Positions 5,995 to 32,286 of a stretch of DNA of 32,286 nucleotides are shown here, in pieces. Numbering within the stretch: position 1 is the stretch's first letter; the number at the start of each line of letters is the position of its first letter. Made by a program: the position numbers and the translations under genes. Where the stretch lies: IMG/VR virus record IMGVR_UViG_3300013119_001050, positions 1 through 32,286 of that record; one strand, 5' to 3'. The notes below the pieces were generated by a model. That model searched no databases. It saw nothing but the letters and a program-made list of their open reading frames with translations, and was not told the DNA's origin. This stretch comes from a virus.

Positions 5995-6948
5995 TCACTG
6001 GCAGATAAGCCGCAGAGAATCGCAACTGTAGATCGAATCCGTCTGGTCGACGGACAGGCCCTCCGGGAAGCCGAGCCTCAGGTACTTCATCCCCCTGAGA
6101 TCGATCGCCTTCTGCGTCGGGGGCCGCGCGTGCATCGAATTGGTGTAGTCGATCGCCTGGAACTCCGCGGCGCCGTAGCACCCGCTCTGGTGCGTGTCGA
6201 TGCCGCTCGACTCCGGGGCAAAGCAGGCGACGAAATCAAAGCTGTAGAAGTTCACGTCGCTCGGGTCATCGCCGGTGATGTTCGAGACCAGCCCGTTCTT
6301 CAGCGGCTGGTAGCTGGCGCCGTGCGAGCCGACGGCGTACCTGTAGTCGGTCTCCTCTTCGCTGTGGTACATGAAGAGCTGGCCGGTCAGGTGCCGGTAC
6401 GCCAGGAAACCCACGTTGCTCGTGATGATCCGGCCCCAGTGGAAGTTCGACACGTCCACGTAGCAGTTCGTGATCATCATGTGCTCGCCGGGGCCGAGGA
6501 GGAGCTTTCTTTCGAACGTGTACGGCCCCGTGGTCGCGGTGTACCCCTCGAACAGCCCGCCGGCATGAACGCCGGTGTAGGTGTCGGGGTCGGCGCCCGC
6601 CTTCAGGTAGAGCGTCCCGCTGCTCCACCACCAGTCGCCGTAGGTGCCCGCCTCGACATTGGCGATGCTCGTCTTTTCACTGCCGATGATCCAGGTGCTG
6701 CCGGACGTGTTGGTGTGGACGCGGAGAGGACCGCTGTTGTTCTCGGACGCGTAGCACGACGGCGACGGCGTGTAGGTCGCCTCCCACACGGTGCCGCTGT
6801 TCAGCGACCAGGTCGTCACGGCGTCGTAGTGGCGCGTCTGGTCGCGGATGAACTCGAAGGTGTAGACCTCGGAGTGCGCAGCGACGTTCACGGAGTTCTG
6901 GGCCTCGCCGCCGCTCTTGCAGAGATATGGAAGCGCTCTATCAACCAC
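5995..6948 (-). CDS. Putative virion protein, 317 aa
   Basis: The start is GTG at 6948, chosen because GAGGTGA lies four bases upstream and the previous gene ends at 6957. The protein is rich in Gly, Ser, Thr, Tyr and Trp and predicted to be mostly beta structure. Examples are TSGSTWIIGSEKT at about residues 80-92, GDWWWSSGTLYLKAG near 105-120 and FERKLLLGPGEHMMITNCYVDVSNF near 165-190. This resembles right-handed beta-helix or sandwich folds found in phage fibres and head decoration proteins. There are no membrane segments. Family not recognised; it is placed among virion proteins by operon position. Confidence 0.7.
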   Translation of the reverse strand: MVDRALPYLCKSGGEAQNSVNVAAHSEVYTFEFIRDQTRHYDAVTTWSLNSGTVWEATYTPSPSCYASENNSGPLRVHTNTSGSTWIIGSEKTSIANVEAGTYGDWWWSSGTLYLKAGADPDTYTGVHAGGLFEGYTATTGPYTFERKLLLGPGEHMMITNCYVDVSNFHWGRIITSNVGFLAYRHLTGQLFMYHSEEETDYRYAVGSHGASYQPLKNGLVSNITGDDPSDVNFYSFDFVACFAPESSGIDTHQSGCYGAAEFQAIDYTNSMHARPPTQKAIDLRGMKYLRLGFPEGLSVDQTDSIYSCDSLRLICQ

Positions 6949-6956
6949 GGATCACC

Positions 6957-7430
6957 TCACCAAGTGACGATGCCGACTTCGGTCACGGAGTCGGCCTCCT
7001 GGCTTGCGTATATCTTCACGAAACGGGCGGCGGACTCGAGCGGACTCCAGCCCACGGTGCCAACAGCGCCCGCGTTGCCGAACACACCGTCCATGGACGC
7101 CCCGTTGTACTGGTTGATCATCCGGAGAGCGGTCGTGCCGTCCATGGCCAGGGGCGACACCCAGAACGACTGGTCGCCGATGAAATCGAAGAGCGGAGAA
7201 TAGCTCGTCGCCCCGGCGACAGTGGTGACAAGGTCTTCCACGACAAGAAGGATCTTGCCGGAAGGGCCGACAGGAGCCCACGCGTCCGTGGAGCGGCCGG
7301 CGCCATGAGCGGACCACCCCGTTGAGATATGGGACGCGAGTATGAAGTACTGCGACTCCGGGGGGATGGACGTGGAGGGGCTCTTGAGTCTCCCCTCGAC
7401 CGGGTTGGAAGACGCGCTTACAACGGCCAT
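6957..7430 (-). CDS. Putative virion protein, 157 aa
   Basis: The ATG at 7430 follows GAGGTG. The product has a hydrophobic, beta-rich core (SGKILLVVEDLVTTVAG around residues 58-74, then FDFIGDQSFWVSPLAMDG around 80-98) and no charged tails. It looks like a small single-domain capsid-associated or tail-associated protein. It sits directly after the adaptor candidate and before the 317-residue virion protein, all in one direction with minimal gaps. I do not recognise the family; possible roles include a head decoration or tail component. Confidence 0.65.
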   Translation of the reverse strand: MAVVSASSNPVEGRLKSPSTSIPPESQYFILASHISTGWSAHGAGRSTDAWAPVGPSGKILLVVEDLVTTVAGATSYSPLFDFIGDQSFWVSPLAMDGTTALRMINQYNGASMDGVFGNAGAVGTVGWSPLESAARFVKIYASQEADSVTEVGIVTW

Positions 7431-7440
7431 TTTTCACCTC

Positions 7441-8205
7441 TCAATAGTCTACTGCCGGATCCGGCCACTCCTCCATGAGGACGGGGGAGTTCTCCTTCTG
7501 CTCCGTTATCGCGCTCGTCGCCTGGTTCTCTTCCCTGGCAAGGCGCGCCTCCATCATGTTGATCTTCTCCTGCGAGCGCTCGATCTCGAGGCAAAGCCGC
7601 TCGGCAAGAGACTTGAAGAACGGTATTGCCCGCTCGGGTATGTCGAGATAGTCGTTCGGGTTCGTGATCGTGTCGCCCTCGTGCGTGATCGGCTGCGGCT
7701 TGAAGTAGTAGTGCATCTTCAGGCCGCTCACAAGAGCCGACGTCGGTTGAGGAACAAGGCCGATCGCGGGGTATTTCACGCTGCTGTTCGTGATACTACC
7801 TGTCGTGAAGTAGAACTTGAGCGCCGCGACGTTCGGGACGTTCTGGTCGGAGCGGACGTACCTGTACCGGTCCGTGATCGAAATCTGCTCGACCGGGTGC
7901 TCCTCCCCGGAAGACTCGACCGTGAGGAACTGCCTGGCTTGCAGGTAGTCGTCGACGTCGAAGTCGCCGCTGGGGCCGATGGTGTACACCTCCTGCGAAG
8001 AGACGAGATTCGCCGATGCCGTGGTGTTGATGAACTGGTCGCCCTTGTCGATCAGGTGGAGCGCCGCGTGATCCATGGCAAGGTTGATCACGGTGCAGAG
8101 CTTCTCGACCGAGTAGGGCGAGCCGGAAAGCGTCGACGTCGTCAGCTTCAGCTTGATGAGCAGGTAGTCGAAGATATCCTGGAAGGTCACGCGTTCGGCG
8201 GACAT
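7441..8205 (-). CDS. Head-tail adaptor-like protein, 254 aa
   Basis: The ATG at 8205 overlaps the end of the preceding gene by 19 bases. The N-terminal third (residues 1-60) is helical (TFQDIFDYLLIKLKL, VEKLCTVINLAMDHAALHL). A beta-rich middle follows, then a C-terminal helical segment (residues 190-240, FFKSLAERLCLEIERSQEKINMMEARL). This helix-beta-helix layout, the size and the place shortly after the capsid gene match podovirus head-tail adaptor (connector gp4/gp11-like) proteins. These ring proteins bind the portal and receive the nozzle. Family assignment is by architecture and context; no diagnostic motif is visible. Confidence 0.6.
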   Translation of the reverse strand: MSAERVTFQDIFDYLLIKLKLTTSTLSGSPYSVEKLCTVINLAMDHAALHLIDKGDQFINTTASANLVSSQEVYTIGPSGDFDVDDYLQARQFLTVESSGEEHPVEQISITDRYRYVRSDQNVPNVAALKFYFTTGSITNSSVKYPAIGLVPQPTSALVSGLKMHYYFKPQPITHEGDTITNPNDYLDIPERAIPFFKSLAERLCLEIERSQEKINMMEARLAREENQATSAITEQKENSPVLMEEWPDPAVDY

Positions 8206-8744
8206 TTGTCTATATCAACCATTCTTGAAACCCCGTCCTGCCGGATGGGGATACTGCGCTGGCGTACCTTGTCCACGTTCGATGTTCCGTACGGCGTCGA
8301 GATGATCCTGCCCTTCGAGTTCCAGATGTCGCGGGCGATGTCCATCCCGATATCCTTCGCGCCGTCGATCGATTTCTGCCTGATGCCGGCGTTCGACTTC
8401 TCCATGGCGTCGATGGCCTCGCAGAAACCGCCGTGCCGGCTTGTGTCCATCTCTCGAAGAGCCCTGATGAGCCGGAACCGGCACGAGCTCGGGGTGACGG
8501 ATCTTTTTTCCCCATCCATGAGGGAGAAAACCCAGACCCACTTCCCGAACGGCCATGCCGATCCCGGCACACCAAGAAGGCTCGGATGCGTCGGGACATA
8601 AGTCTTGGCCTCCTGAGCGACCACCCAGACGGGTTGCCCGGTCCTGTGGTGCCGCGAAGAGCGGACGAGGGCCAGGTCCTTGCTGACCATGCGGACAGCC
8701 TTTTCCACGTCCGCGTAGGGGTGCCTCTCGATCGGTATCCTCAT
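8187..8744 (-). CDS. Conserved-type late protein after capsid gene, 185 aa
   Basis: The ATG at 8744 has AAGGAGG about nine bases upstream. The sequence is mixed alpha/beta and basic. Its N-terminal part contains VWVVAQEAKTYVPTHPSLLG and WPFGKWVWVFSL (around residues 38-77). The C-terminal half is helical, with FCEAIDAMEKSNAGIRQKSIDGAKDIGMDIARDIW. No signal peptide or transmembrane helix. It lies between the major capsid gene and the adaptor candidate, where phages often encode head completion or small accessory head proteins. Family not recognised. Confidence 0.65.
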   Translation of the reverse strand: MRIPIERHPYADVEKAVRMVSKDLALVRSSRHHRTGQPVWVVAQEAKTYVPTHPSLLGVPGSAWPFGKWVWVFSLMDGEKRSVTPSSCRFRLIRALREMDTSRHGGFCEAIDAMEKSNAGIRQKSIDGAKDIGMDIARDIWNSKGRIISTPYGTSNVDKVRQRSIPIRQDGVSRMVDIDKCPPNA

Positions 8745-8764
8745 GTCCTCAACGCCTCCTTCGG

Positions 8765-10369
8765 TTATGCGTCACCCGCATCGACGGTACCGCAGGTCCC
8801 GATCTTCACGCCCGTGAGAAGGGCGTTCCGGTTCGGGCTGTCGCAGATATGGTCCGCGAGCATGGTCACGTCGGCGGTGACGGCGTACTTGTAACGGCCT
8901 ATCGAAGAGTCGATGGCCGGACGGAAGATCCCGGCTCCGGTGTCCCACCAGGAGAAGTCGGAGACGAGGCCCACGTAGTGCGTGCTCGAGTCGAGCATCC
9001 AGATCGGCTGGTAGATCGGGTCGGAGGTTGCGCTGGCGTCCTTGACCCACGGGCCGGCGTACTTGTCGACCACGATCGGGATCTCCTCGTTGAAGAGCAT
9101 CCAGTTCTGGCCGCCGGGGTGCTTGTCCTGATTCTTGTCCATGAAGCCCGTCTTGGTCGAGATGGTGTTCATGAACCGCTGCTTGCTGTACTGGGGCGTG
9201 AGACCCTGCGCCAGGGCCGCGTACTGCCTCGTACCGTCGCGGGACATCAAGATGAGGTCGATCTCGCCGAACGACCTGTTGTGAACCGTGTCGATGTTCT
9301 TCTGTATGCAGAGCGCCGGGTTGCCGGCGGTCGAGCTTGTCCAGTCGTAGATGTTGCTCGAACCGAGCGTCTTGTCGACGATGCTGTTGAAGTACGAATA
9401 GGAGCTACGGTTGATGCCGAGGTAGTCCGACTCGCCGAGCGGGTTCACGTTCGCCATGGAGGCGCTCAGGCCACGGAAGCCGTACTGCGTGTGAGCGGCG
9501 CCAGCGTAGTTGTGGTAGCCGTACCAGTGGACCTTGTCGCTCGCGCCGATCGTGATGTCGTTCGCTGCCGCCTCGGTGGCGATGAACTCGTAGGAAGTCG
9601 CACTCTCGGAATCCTCGCCGCAAAGCTCGATCTTGGCCGACACGCCGTTGTCGTCGAACTCGATGCGCTTGACGTGCATGAAGAGCTCGTTGTACTCGGT
9701 GCTGGCGTTGTCGAAGGGGGCGCGTTCCGCGGCGTAGTCGGATGCCCAGACCCGGATTCGCATGCCTTCGTAGTAGTAGTGCCCGTTGGAGACACGCATC
9801 CAGTTGTCCGCCGGGAAGAGCGGGGTGCCAGGTGTCACCGGATACTTCACGTAATTGGTCGCGAGCACCGACGGCACGACGGTCGTGCCGGTGTACTGCT
9901 GATAGAACGGCAGAAGCCCCGAGCCGTCGCCGTAGCACTGGGCGTCGAGGCGCTCCTTGAAGTCGCGGAGCAGGTTCATCATTTCGCCGTCGAGGATGTC
10001 GTAGAACGTCCCGCGATCCGTCTGGGCCTGGTCGATGGCGTCCTGCGGAAGCTCGATGGCGCCGGTGAGGAGCCTCGGAGTCGCGGTCGCCTTCGTGACA
10101 CCCATGTGGCCGGGGATGGAAAGAGTCGAGGACGCAGCGCCAGCGGTCGTGGAACGAGCGATGGGCTGCGGAGAGCTGTTCCTCCGGTAGCGGAGGGGGA
10201 TGACCATCTGATTGCCGTGGTATTCCACGGCATCCTGGCGGAAGAGCTGCCAGGTAGCTGTGCCTCCGGAGAGGAGATCGATCCAATTCTGGAGATACCA
10301 CTCCTTCAGCCAATCAGTCCAGATACCGAGGTCGGTACCATGCTGAAATTCCGGGGTACCGTAAGCCAT
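8765..10369 (-). CDS. Major capsid protein, 534 aa
   Basis: The ATG at 10369 follows a strong AAAGGAGG site, as expected of the most highly translated late gene. The sequence shows the usual capsid pattern: an N-terminal arm with WTDWLKEWYLQNWIDLLSGG, then an A-domain-like stretch with ELPQDAIDQAQTDRGTFYDILDGEMMNLLRDFKERLDAQCYGDGSG at about residues 105-150. Long beta-rich regions, a homopolymer-free composition and a Gly/Ala/Asp-rich C-terminus follow. It comes immediately after the portal and the scaffold candidate, the standard order. The alternating helical spine and polar loops fit an HK97-type fold, but that fold is inferred. The length suggests an inserted or extra domain relative to minimal capsid proteins. 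Confidence 0.85.
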   Translation of the reverse strand: MAYGTPEFQHGTDLGIWTDWLKEWYLQNWIDLLSGGTATWQLFRQDAVEYHGNQMVIPLRYRRNSSPQPIARSTTAGAASSTLSIPGHMGVTKATATPRLLTGAIELPQDAIDQAQTDRGTFYDILDGEMMNLLRDFKERLDAQCYGDGSGLLPFYQQYTGTTVVPSVLATNYVKYPVTPGTPLFPADNWMRVSNGHYYYEGMRIRVWASDYAAERAPFDNASTEYNELFMHVKRIEFDDNGVSAKIELCGEDSESATSYEFIATEAAANDITIGASDKVHWYGYHNYAGAAHTQYGFRGLSASMANVNPLGESDYLGINRSSYSYFNSIVDKTLGSSNIYDWTSSTAGNPALCIQKNIDTVHNRSFGEIDLILMSRDGTRQYAALAQGLTPQYSKQRFMNTISTKTGFMDKNQDKHPGGQNWMLFNEEIPIVVDKYAGPWVKDASATSDPIYQPIWMLDSSTHYVGLVSDFSWWDTGAGIFRPAIDSSIGRYKYAVTADVTMLADHICDSPNRNALLTGVKIGTCGTVDAGDA

Positions 10370-27750: not shown

Positions 27751-28041
27751 ATGAAGCAGGTTAGCAAGTACCGTGCGCTGTGGGATACTCTCTTGATCGA
27801 AGTCGACGACCCGGAGCAGGAAACAAAGGGCAAGGACGGCAACCCGATCATCCTGCCGAAGTCGGCGCAGACCGGCAAGCTCACGGGCGTCGTCAGGAAA
27901 ACCGGCCCTGAGGTGAACGAGCTCCTGAAGCCCGGCATCCGGGTGATGTTCTCGTTCATGAGCGGCCAGGAAGTCATCCTCGACGAGAAGAAGTACATCT
28001 GTGTGCAGGAGCGCGAGATCATCGCGATTCTCAAGGACTGA
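27751..28041 (+). CDS. GroES-like co-chaperonin, 96 aa
   Basis: The ATG at 27751 follows AAAAGGAGTTGAT. The whole sequence follows the GroES/Cpn10 plan. Residues 6-16 (KYRALWDTLLIEV) match the opening strand of GroES (IRPLHDRVIVK). GNPIILPKSAQTGKLTG at about 28-46 is the mobile loop with an IIL tripeptide, comparable to the GroES IVL that docks on GroEL, followed by the G-x-V strand. LKPGIRVMFSFMSGQEVILDEKKYICVQEREIIAIL at about 59-95 matches VKVGDIVIF...EEVLIMSESDILAI. It would cap host GroEL, as T4 gp31 does, to fold viral proteins. It lies in the replication gene region rather than with capsid genes. Confidence 0.85.
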   Translation: MKQVSKYRALWDTLLIEVDDPEQETKGKDGNPIILPKSAQTGKLTGVVRKTGPEVNELLKPGIRVMFSFMSGQEVILDEKKYICVQEREIIAILKD

Positions 28042-28062: not shown

Positions 28063-28509
28063 ATGAAAAAGCTGACGATCAACGACCTGGACCTCGACCC
28101 GGGTCTTCCCGACCCGGACGAGGCGTTCGACGGCGTGGCGCGCACTTGGCGCCACTGGCGCGACATGAAGGACGAGGTCGATGCCCTGGCCAAGGAGGTC
28201 AACAAGAAGATCGACCACTGGAAGAGCAAGATCCTCACCTGGATCGAGACGACCGGCGCGGAGCAGATGAATTCGGCGGGCGCCTGGTTCAAGCCGACCG
28301 TCAAGTACTCCGCCCGGATCAACAAGGACGACCGCGACGCCGCGCACCTGTGGCTTCGCGACATCGGCGAGGGTGACGCCATCCAGGAGAGCGTCCACGC
28401 CTCCACTCTCAAGAAGCTCGTCAAGCAGTTCGACGAGGAGGGGATCGAGGTCCCCGACTCGATCAAGTTTTCCACGTATACCGACCTGAAGTATGGGAGA
28501 CAGTCATGA
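28063..28509 (+). CDS. Conserved early protein next to ssDNA-binding gene, 148 aa
   Basis: The ATG at 28063 follows AAAGGAGCCGAA, and the end overlaps the next start by four bases. Residues 25-65 are a charged helical segment (VARTWRHWRDMKDEVDALAKE, then WKSKILTWIETTG). A beta-rich part follows (WFKPTVKYSARIN), then a helix and a final segment, STLKKLVKQFDEEGIEVPDSIKFSTYTDLKYGR. The order of coiled segment, beta pair, 'xLKxLVKxxxEEG' and closing strand is seen in a widespread phage family encoded beside recombination or ssDNA-binding genes; function not established. Its coupling to the next gene suggests a shared complex. Confidence 0.65.
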   Translation: MKKLTINDLDLDPGLPDPDEAFDGVARTWRHWRDMKDEVDALAKEVNKKIDHWKSKILTWIETTGAEQMNSAGAWFKPTVKYSARINKDDRDAAHLWLRDIGEGDAIQESVHASTLKKLVKQFDEEGIEVPDSIKFSTYTDLKYGRQS

Positions 28510-29360
28510 GTAAGGCCAAAGAAACCGTTCCTGCCAAGCAGGAAACAGGCGCTGTCGCGGACCCGATCCAGTACAACGACGGACTCGAGAATCTCGACGA
28601 CGCTGGCGACTTCCAGATCACGCGCCTGAGGATCATCCAGAACACCACGAGCGCCGGCTACGAGCTCGTGGGCAACGTCGGCGTCTTCGCCGACCCCGAG
28701 ACCGGCGAGAGCTACGGCAAGGAGGTCGAGGTCATCCCGGTCTACATCCCGCCGAAGACCCGGGCGCGCTTCGAGATCAACGACGACGGCGAGCAGGTCC
28801 TCGGCAGCCCGCCGGTCTGCAAGTCGTCGAACGCGAAATGGCCGGACACGCCGGACACGCCGTTTCCGAGGACGAAGGACCCGGACAAGTTCCCCTGCCT
28901 CTCCTGCCCCGAGGCGGAGTTCGGCAAGCGCGACCCCAAGACCCGCAAGTCGCCGCCGCCGCGCTGCCGGCTGCAGTACAACTACGCTCTCGTGATCGTG
29001 GCCGTCGAGGGCAAGGAGCTGGATCCTCCCGAGGGGGTGTTCTTTTCCATGCAGAAGGGCTCGATCGGGGCGGCAAAGGCGTTCAACACCCTGCTGACGA
29101 AGAAGAAGGCCGGTCACGCGATCTGGCACAAGCGGTATCGCCTGAGCCACTTCGTGAAGGAGGTCTCGACAAAGCAGGGCTTGACCAAGTTCTTCTGCCC
29201 GCAGTTCTCCGTGGCCGGCTTCTCGAGCGAGGAGCAGGTCGCCATGGCCGAGGGCCTCAACGCCGTCTTCGCCGCGAACGCCGACAAGCTCGCGGACATG
29301 GCGGAGGGTGAGGGCAACGACAGCTTCGACACCGACAAGTTCGAGGGCGGAGCTCTTTGA
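28506..29360 (+). CDS. Candidate phage ssDNA-binding protein with zinc cluster, 284 aa
   Basis: The ATG at 28506 overlaps the previous stop. The N-terminal half is beta-rich (ITRLRIIQNTTSAGYELVGNVGVFADPETGESYG). A cysteine cluster at about residues 104-154 (C near KSSNAKW, the CLSC pair, then C before RLQYNYALVIVAV) suggests a zinc-binding loop inserted in the fold. The C-terminus is acidic (AEGEGNDSFDTDKF), like the protein-binding tail of phage and bacterial SSBs. Position between the co-chaperonin/early-protein genes and the primase-helicase supports a single-stranded DNA-binding role in replication. No OB-fold signature is proven; an unassigned zinc-containing phage replication protein is the alternative. 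Confidence 0.65.
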   Translation: MSKAKETVPAKQETGAVADPIQYNDGLENLDDAGDFQITRLRIIQNTTSAGYELVGNVGVFADPETGESYGKEVEVIPVYIPPKTRARFEINDDGEQVLGSPPVCKSSNAKWPDTPDTPFPRTKDPDKFPCLSCPEAEFGKRDPKTRKSPPPRCRLQYNYALVIVAVEGKELDPPEGVFFSMQKGSIGAAKAFNTLLTKKKAGHAIWHKRYRLSHFVKEVSTKQGLTKFFCPQFSVAGFSSEEQVAMAEGLNAVFAANADKLADMAEGEGNDSFDTDKFEGGAL

Positions 29361-29368
29361 AAAACGTG

Positions 29369-29436
29369 GCCGCGCCGGGGTCAATCATGTTTCGGACCTG
29401 GGCCTTTTAGATCCAAGCCCGGCGCGGCATTTTTTA
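29369..29436 (+). terminator. Rho-independent terminator after the ssDNA-binding gene
   Basis: GCCGCGCCGGG (29369-29379) pairs perfectly with CCCGGCGCGGC (29418-29428), followed by ATTTTTT. An 11-pair GC stem with a T-run right after the stop codon is a strong intrinsic terminator, despite a 38-base loop. Confidence 0.8.
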
Positions 29437-29445
29437 AAAACAAAC

Positions 29446-29542
29446 GAGGGGCCCGCCATGTATCCGCACACAAAAGGACGGCCGCAGCAAACCCCACCCA
29501 CCAAAGTCCCTGACATGCCACGGTCGTCTGGGCGGGCTCCTC
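29446..29542 (+). promoter_or_regulatory. Large stem enclosing a leader ORF
   Basis: GAGGGGCCCGCC (29446-29457) can pair with GGCGGGCTCCTC (29531-29542) over 12 positions with one G-U. The left arm contains the Shine-Dalgarno of a 36-codon frame starting at 29458, and the right arm ends shortly before the primase-helicase ribosome site. It could regulate translation. Confidence 0.45.
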
Positions 29543-29568
29543 TTCTTATTTTCTTGGAGGAAAGATGA
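29458..29568 (+). CDS. Possible leader peptide, 36 aa
   Basis: ATG at 29458 has GAGGGG six bases upstream. The frame runs 36 codons to a TGA that overlaps the primase-helicase ATG (ATGA). The peptide is Pro/Arg/Lys-rich (MYPHTKGRPQQTPP...) and ends LLIFLEER, so it is unlikely to be an enzyme. It may couple translation of the next gene or may be spurious. Confidence 0.35.
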   Translation: MYPHTKGRPQQTPPTKVPDMPRSSGRAPLLIFLEER

Positions 29569-31508
29569 ACACCCTCGACGCCGTCGCCGATTTTCCTCCC
29601 TGCGCCAGGCAGATGCTGACGAGGGGAATTCGGGGCGACGGCCGTGAGGTTCTTTTCTTCAAACTCTGCCTTCACTTCAAGGCGCGGTCCTTCTCGAAAG
29701 AGGAAGCGCTGGATCTCCTCCTGTTCGTGAACTCCAACGCCGTCTACCCGGCCCTCGCCGAAGAGGTCGTCGAGCGCGAGCTGAAGAAGGCGTACGCCAG
29801 GGACGAGGATTTCGGCTGCGGCACGGCCCTGCTCTCGGACTACTGCGACAAGACGTGCGACCTCTACCCGGGCGACACGAGCGACGCGGGGCAGCTCATG
29901 GTGTCGTTCAAGGACGTCGAGAAGGGCGAGTACAAGTTCAAGCACGGCACCTGCCTTTTCGAGCTGTCGGGCTTTGCGATCTTCCGCGGCTCCGGCAGGG
30001 CGAGCGTGACCCTGTCGAGGGGAGGCGAGCTGGTCCACCGCGACATGCTCTCCTTCGCATCCTCCCCCCAGAGGCAGCGCTACGTCGCCGCGGCCACCAA
30101 GGCCGGCGTGAACGGCCTCAACGTCAACCAGGACCTGATCGACATCGAGAGCATCGTCCTCGAGATGCGCCGGCGTACGGCGATGATGAGCATGCTCGAG
30201 GAGAAGAAGAAGTACGCCCTCACTCCCGGCGAGGAGCAGGCCGCGAAGGAGTGGCTTTCCCACAACCCGTTCCTGCTCGAGACGATCCTGTCGCTCGTGT
30301 CGCGCTTTGGTGTCGTGGGTGAAGAGCGGTCGATCCTGCTTATCTACCTCCTTCTCACATCCCGGCTGCTCCCGACGCCCGTGTCGGCCATCACGAAGGG
30401 CGAGAGCTCCACGGGCAAGAGCCATGTCATCGGCCAGGTGCTGAAGATATTTCCCGACTCCGAGGTCCTCACGTTCACGCGCTCGACGGGCGCCGCGCTC
30501 TACCACGGCGCGCCGGACGAGTACAGGTACAAGGTCCTCTACTTCGCCGAGGCCGCCGGCATGAACGAGGAGCAGGCGAACCTGGCTGTCCGCTCCCTCC
30601 AGTCCGAGGCCTCCCTGTCGCTCCGGATCTCGGTGAAGGACCCGAACACGGGCGCCTGGCAGGCAGAGACGAAGAAGGTCCAGGGCCCCTGCGCCGTGAT
30701 CACGACCACGACGGAGTCGATGCTCTACAAGGACAACGAGACGCGGTGCTTCTCCATCTACTCGAACGACTCGGAGGAGCAGACGAGCGACGTGCTCTCC
30801 CACATCGGCCTGAAGGCGGCCGACAAGCTCTTGCCGCCGCCCACGAAGGAGGAGGTGCAGCCCGTGTCGAACGCGCAGCTCCTCCTCACGACGCATCGCG
30901 GCCAGAAAGTCGTCGTGCCCTTCGCGAACAGGATCACCGACGTATTACCCTGCGAGAGCGCCAGGATTCGCCGTGACGCGGAACGGTTCCTGAATTTGAT
31001 CTGTGCATCGGCCATGATCCACCGGTACCACAGGAAGTCCGAGAACAAGGTCCTGTTCGCGAACCTTGCGGACTACTACATCGCGAAGGAGATCGGCCGC
31101 CAGGCCCTGTTCCAGTCTCTTCACGAGCTCGGCCCCCAGGCCGAGCGCCTCTTCCAGTGGGTCGAGGGGCAGATAGTCCTGAAGAACGAGGGCGAGAAGC
31201 CAATCATGGACTTCTCGAACTACGAGAGCTTCAAGGAGGACTGGATCGTCACGTACGACGAGATCGCCGAGGGCCTGAACGTGTCGAAGCGGTGGATCCA
31301 GACGTGGATCAAGCAGCTCTACCATTCCGAGCACCTGATAAACCTGGCTCGCGGCAAGAAGGGCCGTTCCGCCAGGATCACCCTCGGCCCGAAGTCTTTC
31401 GTGGAGGAGGTAACGCTCCCGCCCGTGCGGGAGCTCATGGACGCGTACCCGTGCGACGAGGAACTGATCTACTCGCCGCTCGGCCTTGAAGTGGATCTTG
31501 ATAAATGA
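29565..31508 (+). CDS. Primase/helicase: PriL-like Fe-S domain fused to AAA+ helicase, 647 aa
   Basis: The ATG at 29565 follows TTGGAGG. Residues 10-101 resemble the iron-sulfur domain of archaeo-eukaryotic primase large subunit (PriL): FPPCARQML opens it (Cys13), a GDGREVLFFKLCLHF helix follows, and the remaining cysteines Cys85, Cys94 and Cys98 lie in GCGTALLSDYCDKTCDLY. The AAA+ core has Walker A GESSTGKS (279-286), Walker B-like VLYFAEA (324-330), a sensor ITTTTES near 379-385 and a candidate arginine finger in NETRCFS (391-397). The C-terminal part (about 575-625, YDEIAEGLNVSKRWIQTWIKQLY) is a winged helix. It is likely the replicative helicase with primer-related function. No catalytic primase small-subunit domain is visible in the window. 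Confidence 0.85.
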   Translation: MNTLDAVADFPPCARQMLTRGIRGDGREVLFFKLCLHFKARSFSKEEALDLLLFVNSNAVYPALAEEVVERELKKAYARDEDFGCGTALLSDYCDKTCDLYPGDTSDAGQLMVSFKDVEKGEYKFKHGTCLFELSGFAIFRGSGRASVTLSRGGELVHRDMLSFASSPQRQRYVAAATKAGVNGLNVNQDLIDIESIVLEMRRRTAMMSMLEEKKKYALTPGEEQAAKEWLSHNPFLLETILSLVSRFGVVGEERSILLIYLLLTSRLLPTPVSAITKGESSTGKSHVIGQVLKIFPDSEVLTFTRSTGAALYHGAPDEYRYKVLYFAEAAGMNEEQANLAVRSLQSEASLSLRISVKDPNTGAWQAETKKVQGPCAVITTTTESMLYKDNETRCFSIYSNDSEEQTSDVLSHIGLKAADKLLPPPTKEEVQPVSNAQLLLTTHRGQKVVVPFANRITDVLPCESARIRRDAERFLNLICASAMIHRYHRKSENKVLFANLADYYIAKEIGRQALFQSLHELGPQAERLFQWVEGQIVLKNEGEKPIMDFSNYESFKEDWIVTYDEIAEGLNVSKRWIQTWIKQLYHSEHLINLARGKKGRSARITLGPKSFVEEVTLPPVRELMDAYPCDEELIYSPLGLEVDLDK

Positions 31509-32009: not shown

Positions 32010-32087
32010 CGATGCGCAGGCCGAGCCGCTGATGCGGCGGGGGATGGAGTGTTACAAGGACGCGCGGGCGCAGCAGAGGAGGGTGTG

Positions 32088-32286
32088 ATGGAAAAGATCC
32101 AAATAAAGAATCGATGGACAGGGGATATTATTTTCAGGTTCGAGTGCGAAAAAAACACGACGAGAGAAACAGTTGAGGAGGCGTTAAAGCGCGGCGCCGA
32201 CCTGCGCGGTGCCGACCTGTACGGTGCCAACCTGCGCGGTGCCGACCTGGGCGGTGCCAACCTGCGCGGTGCCAACCTGCGCGGTG
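32088..32286 (+). CDS. Pentapeptide-repeat protein (C-terminus beyond window)
   Basis: The ATG at 32088 follows GAGGAGGGTG. After a 36-residue N-terminal part (MEKIQIKNRWTGDIIFRFEC...) the sequence becomes a regular array of A-(D/N)-L-x-G units (GADLRGADLYGANLRGADLG), the signature of the right-handed quadrilateral beta-helix of pentapeptide-repeat proteins. The DNA is correspondingly a 15-bp tandem repeat, with near-identical copies of GGTGCCRACCTG. The gene is cut by the right edge. Known members (Qnr, MfpA) mimic DNA and bind gyrase; whether this one does cannot be seen here. Confidence 0.85.
   Translation, partial: MEKIQIKNRWTGDIIFRFECEKNTTRETVEEALKRGADLRGADLYGANLRGADLGGANLRGANLRG

Follow-up and report, generated by a model that had tools for sequence, protein, structure and literature searches.

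The window analyzed here, which is the whole of a 32,286-base viral record, encodes a 647-amino acid protein (29565-31508, plus strand) composed, as judged by homology, of a four-cysteine PriCT/PriL-like domain, a beta-rich domain, an AAA+ motor, and a winged-helix-like tail. Both the order of these parts and their homologies support the reading offered in a preliminary description of the sequence, of a PriL-like domain joined to an AAA+ helicase, with the N-terminal domain being a four-cysteine PriCT-1/PriL-like module and not PriL itself. As to function, we lean slightly toward a split phage primase-helicase, of which this protein would be the large subunit and the helicase.

The Four-Cysteine Domain

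The gene starts with an ATG, 4 bases downstream of a Shine-Dalgarno sequence, GGAGG (29556-29560), and the coordinates given in the preliminary description are exact, as are the positions of its three further cysteines, at residues 85, 94, and 98; the FPPC opening is at residues 10-13. Only 9 residues separate the protein start from FPPC. The domain occupies residues 7-103 (29583-29873), as supported by profile, PHROG, hhalign, and AlphaFold2 analyses, and the cysteine codons are found at 29601-29603 (Cys13, in FPPC), 29817-29819 (Cys85, in FGC), 29844-29846 (Cys94, in YCDK), and 29856-29858 (Cys98). Long ORFs are also present on the opposite strand over the gene (29385-30896, minus strand, for example), and these are considered shadows because it is the plus frame that has homologues along nearly its whole length.

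Taken alone, the spacing of the cysteines is not strong evidence, as it is not particularly rare: a loosely defined form of it is matched by 3 of the 143 six-frame window ORFs of at least 100 amino acids, where shuffles predict 0.67, and by 0.4% of the sequences obtained by shuffling the 647-amino acid protein. The profile comparisons, on the other hand, appear decisive in marking the domain as a genuine family member. A profile of 45 non-redundant phage relatives, built with the window sequence left out, matches the domain over residues 9-101 with a score of 40.9 bits and an E-value of 7e-12 in a set of 557 six-frame ORFs, the runner-up window ORF scoring 6.5 bits, and a smaller profile gives the window domain 22.7 bits, versus 6.6 bits for the best of 2000 domain shuffles. 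Cys13, Cys94, and Cys98 are each present in 46 of 46 sequences and Cys85 in 45 of 46, and these four are the sole invariant columns of the 42-sequence alignment. The preliminary description had regarded non-conservation of the four cysteines among homologues as a reason to abandon its reading; they are kept in essentially all homologues.

Annotated families point in the same direction. PHROG 21866, labeled “primase,” matches residues 7-97 (E 3e-4). The Pfam family PriCT_1 (PF08708) matches 36 of the 42 alignment members at E <= 1 (best E 6e-14), with the window domain itself at 12.1-12.6 bits, under the curated cut-off of 21.1 bits. The PriL family (PF04104) matches 27 of the 42 members (best E 1.4e-6), and in the same Pfam search the window sequence itself has no PF04104 match. 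Searched against PDB, the 42-sequence profile recovers entries for the Fe-S domain of yeast PriL (E 6e-5), placing Cys13 and Cys85 opposite the first two cluster cysteines of PriL; this profile is needed, as PDB searches with the single window sequence or with a four-sequence domain profile recover nothing. Comparison by hhalign with a PriL set made of the human sequence (corrected against the PDB match) and the yeast fragment from the PDB search results in a probability of 95% (E 3e-8), versus 0.2% for an unrelated-profile control. Thus, the profile-profile test against PriL, one of the checks proposed at the outset, is positive.

With the 42-sequence alignment as input, AlphaFold2 predicts, with confidence, an all-helical domain (pLDDT 87.7), for which the best VIA-align match is PriX (Z 8.7, 88 aligned, 3.1 Å), followed by Xenopus PriL (6.6), the NrS-1 primase-polymerase (6.1), yeast PriL (5.4-5.8), and, further down, RepB' (Z 5.3) and human PriL (Z 4.7), with all of the top eleven matches being primase domains. 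As the Foldseek E-values are all above 1, and thus weak, and as Z-scores under 13 may be incidental for helical bundles, the structural weight rests on the agreement of these matches. The prediction is not that of an unrelated zinc domain, the other outcome that the preliminary description had set against itself. As for the GDGREVLFF helix noted there, a helix is predicted at residues 27-40, and GDGR thus ends just at the start of it. The position of Arg27 is conserved in at least 90% of the alignment and falls in the segment of human PriL Arg306, a residue that contacts the primer 5'-triphosphate (PMC5333051), with the register there ambiguous by four residues.

The kinship between PriCT and PriL has been published already, and PriCT domains have been described as homologues of PriL that are usually fused to the primase they serve (PMC5862659). 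The published PriCT-2/PriL match aligned two of the four cysteines, and the present alignment extends it to a family that conserves the full set of four. Within this kinship, the closest relatives of the window domain by sequence are the four-cysteine PriCT-1-type domains located after the AEP in phage primases, rather than cellular PriL, and it is in this respect that the earlier wording, correct as to the PriL/PriX fold and homology, needs to be modified. One set of examples is the PrimPol-PV1 primases (Thermus phage P23-45 gp40, Bacillus phage vB_BboS-125 gp45, the KLEB27-3 primase), possessing the same helical domain with the four cysteines, at 15-28% identity; while in these the domain follows the AEP in the same chain, the domain in the window starts the chain, and no AEP is present. 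With the Fe-S domain of PriL (Pri2/p58C, PF04104) and with PriX, the window domain shares the helical fold and the order of cysteines. It differs from PriL in comprising only about 104 residues, lacking the N-terminal PriS-binding domain, starting at residue 7, and being fused to an AAA+ motor. When used as a tblastn query against phage records, the N-terminal domain gave no match, because the single sequences are too divergent.

By analogy with PriL, the domain probably holds a [4Fe-4S] cluster. The alternative, which is compatible with any of the functional readings below, is that the four cysteines bind zinc, as a structural site in a PriCT fold. The third and the fourth cysteines are merely 4 residues apart and close to the second, as in zinc sites, while the corresponding distance in yeast PriL (Cys434-Cys474) is 40, and a paper on the Marinitoga CAPP speaks of conserved cysteines only (PMC8211822). 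However, the fold and the cysteine order match those of PriL, whose four cysteines hold [4Fe-4S], the compact spacing fits the situation in Archaea, where the smaller half of the PriL C-terminal domain is largely absent (PMC2852410), and primase domains, not zinc folds, come first in VIA-align. We thus regard zinc as a serious but rather unlikely option.

The Helicase Half

The rest of the protein has a different set of relatives. In tblastn searches against plasmids, residues from about 108 to 607 match CHC2-TOPRIM primase-helicases encoded by Leptospira, Pseudomonas, Paraburkholderia, and Enterobacter plasmids, at 25-30% identity and with E down to 7e-28 (1e-20 to 7e-28 for the AAA+ core). 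The part held in common consists of the beta-rich domain (residues about 108-200; 29886-30164, as defined by alignments), located between the cysteine domain and the AAA+ core, of the AAA+ ATPase core with its lid (residues about 235-535; 30267-31169), and of the C-terminal helix-turn-helix (HTH) region. While the plasmid proteins possess a CHC2 zinc finger and a TOPRIM domain, neither is recognized by Pfam in the window protein, which has the four-cysteine domain instead. Viral relatives of the AAA+ core are represented by proteins of three loci (L012, L013, and L014) and, remotely, by a Sulfolobus SSV protein. Single-sequence scans of viral and genome contigs with the full protein or its AAA+ part found nothing; an AAA+ consensus that served purely as a bait led to L014 and to no phage record or genome contig, and with other AAA+ alignments as queries, only L012 and L013 were gained and L014 was found again.

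When nine sequences are aligned, the Walker A, catalytic glutamate, sensor-1 threonine, and arginine finger of the AAA+ core are found to be retained by most or all of them, with G284, K285, T381, T382, and R394 kept in at least eight of the nine. Walker A is GESSTGKS (residues 279-286; 30399-30422), in which G284 and K285 are invariant in all nine. Walker B is a variant, VLYFAE (residues 324-329; 30534-30551), with the aspartate replaced by alanine (A328), a replacement of the aspartate being found in most of the family, and with Glu329 kept in most. The preliminary description called this core MCM/D5-like. The AAA+ motifs are indeed present, but neither MCM, nor D5, nor any other named AAA+ family of Pfam matches the window protein, and the distant SSV relative has a weak match to MCM (E 0.0016), below the MCM cut-off, leaving “D5-like” unsupported. 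By sequence, the closest relatives of the AAA+ part are the helicase half of CHC2-TOPRIM primases from plasmids and individual viral proteins (L013, L014, and that of Sulfolobus SSV), and not D5.

The AlphaFold2 model of the full-length protein is poor (pLDDT 44), too poor for the placement of domains relative to each other. It does place a beta-hairpin between the Walker B helix and the sensor-1 strand (residues 350-373; 30612-30683), and this low-confidence element is likely the pre-sensor-1 DNA-contact hairpin, as in pre-sensor-1-hairpin helicases. The winged helix proposed in the preliminary description is a more qualified case: the predicted winged-helix-like DNA-binding tail (residues 556-605; 31230-31379) aligns with the HTH tails of the relatives, but its direct matches to HTH models are weak (HTH_17, E 0.03).

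Relatives and the Order of Parts

The association of the four-cysteine domain with AEP was assessed in 80 viral-contig loci, gathered via AEP motifs starting from weak matches to plasmid “primase C-terminal domain” proteins and one viral contig. In 79 of these, the domain comes immediately after the AEP motif within one ORF; because selection of the loci relied on AEP motifs rather than on cysteines, this count is not biased to cysteines, but AEP-less proteins could not be included in it. When all ORFs carrying the four-cysteine domain are considered (113), an AEP motif is found upstream of the domain in 109, the four exceptions being the window ORF, an AEP protein encoded by a plasmid (L008), and a pair of phage proteins, of which one has a divergent AEP-like motif.

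A further relative is encoded at 6768-9026 of a 33-kb viral contig (L014; IMGVR_UViG_3300005860_000225). In this protein of 757 amino acids, an AEP (E 4.5e-20), the four-cysteine domain, an AAA+ motor of the window family (E 5e-18), and an HTH-like tail are all present in one chain. The order of the shared parts is the same as in the window protein; the differences are the AEP at the front and the lack of the beta-rich domain. At the sensitivity used, no close full-length relative of this protein was found in viral contigs, phage records, or plasmids. By sequence, then, the window protein looks like the L014 order minus the AEP, with a helicase half that is closer to the TOPRIM-linked branch. 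Both known partners of the helicase motor are primases, AEP in L014 and CHC2-TOPRIM in plasmid elements. Bacillus phages and elements provide another example, of AEP-PriCT-MCM-like proteins (about 1030-1060 amino acids) that, like the window protein, carry the four-cysteine domain on the same polypeptide as an AAA+ helicase. However, these possess an AEP, and their AAA+ is of another family, having no significant match to that of the window.

Genomic Context and the Search for a Catalytic Primase

The gene comes after a series of genes indicative of a phage replication block, all on the plus strand: an SF2/SNF2-type phage helicase (25900-27672; PHROG 62, E 1e-77), a GroES/Cpn10-like protein of 96 amino acids situated within the block (27751-28041; PF00166, E 5.4e-13), a DUF7307 (Pam3 gp33-like) protein (28063-28509; Pfam E 2.8e-17), and a Pam3 gp34-like protein (28506-29360; Pfam E 6e-8). 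The space between the gp34-like gene and the ORF contains a long inverted repeat, GCCGCGCCGGG ... CCCGGCGCGGC followed by ATTTTTT (29367-29435), maybe a terminator or a regulatory hairpin. The last ORF of the window (32049-32286, plus strand) encodes pentapeptide repeats (PF00805, E 1.8e-12) and is cut by the record end.

No AEP was detected in the 32-kb record with Pfam PF09250, with an AEP profile from 41 loci, with a motif scan, or with ten single AEP/DnaG queries, and no TOPRIM with Pfam PF13155 (Toprim_2) or DnaG-type queries. An AEP catalytic domain with the DxD and sxH motifs is absent from both the ORF and the record, and a six-frame search identified no AEP remnant upstream of the ORF. 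The statement of the preliminary description that the catalytic partner is not in the window is therefore upheld for this 32-kb record, with the caveat that the AEP profile misses the divergent AEP-like protein of Salmonella phage PMBT28, and a very divergent AEP may still be present. The record, which comes with no CheckV completeness value, is probably a fragment, since its ends share no direct repeat, and a gene missing from it may thus well be present in the phage. Among phages sharing this block, a DNA polymerase gene follows either immediately or after a short distance, and two of these phages have a gene for a four-cysteine-domain protein located just before the helicase gene. In PMBT28, which has the same helicase-DUF7307-gp34 block, that gene (L137:3018-4574) encodes the domain after a divergent AEP-like motif (AIDID ... 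SKSGGAH), and gp24 of Acinetobacter phage Barton (L135:1-956) looks similar; both products are unannotated, “hypothetical” proteins. As the window has neither a DNA polymerase gene nor a four-cysteine gene before the helicase, the polymerase at least, and probably an AEP, lie beyond the record ends.

A Possible Split Primase-Helicase

In PriL, it is the C-terminal domain that keeps hold of the template-primer junction and passes it on (PMC5333051). By analogy, the four-cysteine domain at the N-terminus would grip, at the fork, both the template and the primer under synthesis, the latter by its 5' end, and this grip would serve a primase catalytic domain while the AAA+ motor, probably a ring, unwinds the DNA; the winged-helix-like tail may bind DNA or recognize an origin. 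The AEP subunit, which in most cases is fused directly ahead of the domain, would most likely be encoded by a separate gene in the unsequenced part and act in trans. The Fe-S cluster, primer binding, unwinding, and the partner are what we infer here, rather than compute.

A number of observations argue for such a split. The domain belongs to a family paired with AEP in nearly all of the viral AEP loci, it has the PriL/PriX fold and the PHROG “primase” match, the same order of parts is found behind an AEP in L014, in plasmid elements the helicase module likewise stands behind a primase, in that case a CHC2-TOPRIM one of the DnaG type, and the gene is part of a block that in related phages leads on to DNA polymerase. 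Against it, the partner is hypothetical, with no AEP in the record; in PMBT28, a single gene encodes both the AEP-like motif and the four-cysteine domain, and Barton gp24 looks similar, so that the two are not split there; the Walker B aspartate is an alanine, though Glu329 is kept; and the full-length model is poor.

A different possibility, one that we consider to be on the unlikely side, is that the phage has no AEP at all. The domain may then still serve the helicase alone, binding primer-template or single-stranded DNA or aiding origin melting, with the host DnaG doing the priming. The lack of AEP and TOPRIM in the record agrees with this, as does the natural pairing of the helicase module with TOPRIM primases, and DNA unwinding that needs no NTPase domain has been reported for the combination of PriCT-1 and HTH in ColE2 Rep (PMC5862659). 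However, the domain nearly always accompanies an AEP, even if by a census in which AEP-less cases would have been missed, and the record is a fragment whose replication block breaks off ahead of any DNA polymerase gene. Decay of a primase-helicase, through loss of the catalytic AEP by a 5' deletion, seems improbable: the ORF does begin just ahead of FPPC, and the AEP, four-cysteine domain, AAA+ order of L014 would allow it, but the frame is intact, the Shine-Dalgarno is strong, all four cysteines and the main AAA+ motifs are intact, and upstream there is no trace of an AEP. An unrelated cysteine motif resembling PriL by chance can be dismissed, even though the loose pattern alone turns up in other window frames, given the strong match to a model made without the window, the agreement of the profile, fold, and PDB searches, and the outcome of the unrelated-profile control.

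The split primase-helicase, if true, would place a PriL-like domain apart from its catalytic partner and on a helicase, providing a phage counterpart of the arrangement in Archaea and Eukaryotes, where PriL is separate, and the coupling of primer hand-off to unwinding by this domain would become testable. Taken one step further, and here we are tentative, the arrangement could represent a heteromeric phage primase in which a PriL-like Fe-S subunit is part of the replicative helicase and the AEP is on another polypeptide, with one module serving two unrelated primase lineages. In such an enzyme, an AEP-type accessory domain would be joined to a motor otherwise paired with DnaG-type (TOPRIM) primases. 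That proteins linked to TOPRIM and proteins linked to AEP have this motor in common clearly exemplifies the exchange of modules between unrelated primase lineages.

Other combinations are seen among the viral loci. About half of the viral ORFs with AEP and the four-cysteine domain (L029-L108) exceed 900 amino acids, and many possess a P-loop ATPase of a family unlike that of the window. In two of the loci (L094 and L098), the AEP and the four-cysteine domain are fused to an apparent DnaB/RecA-type helicase, which represents yet another helicase partner.
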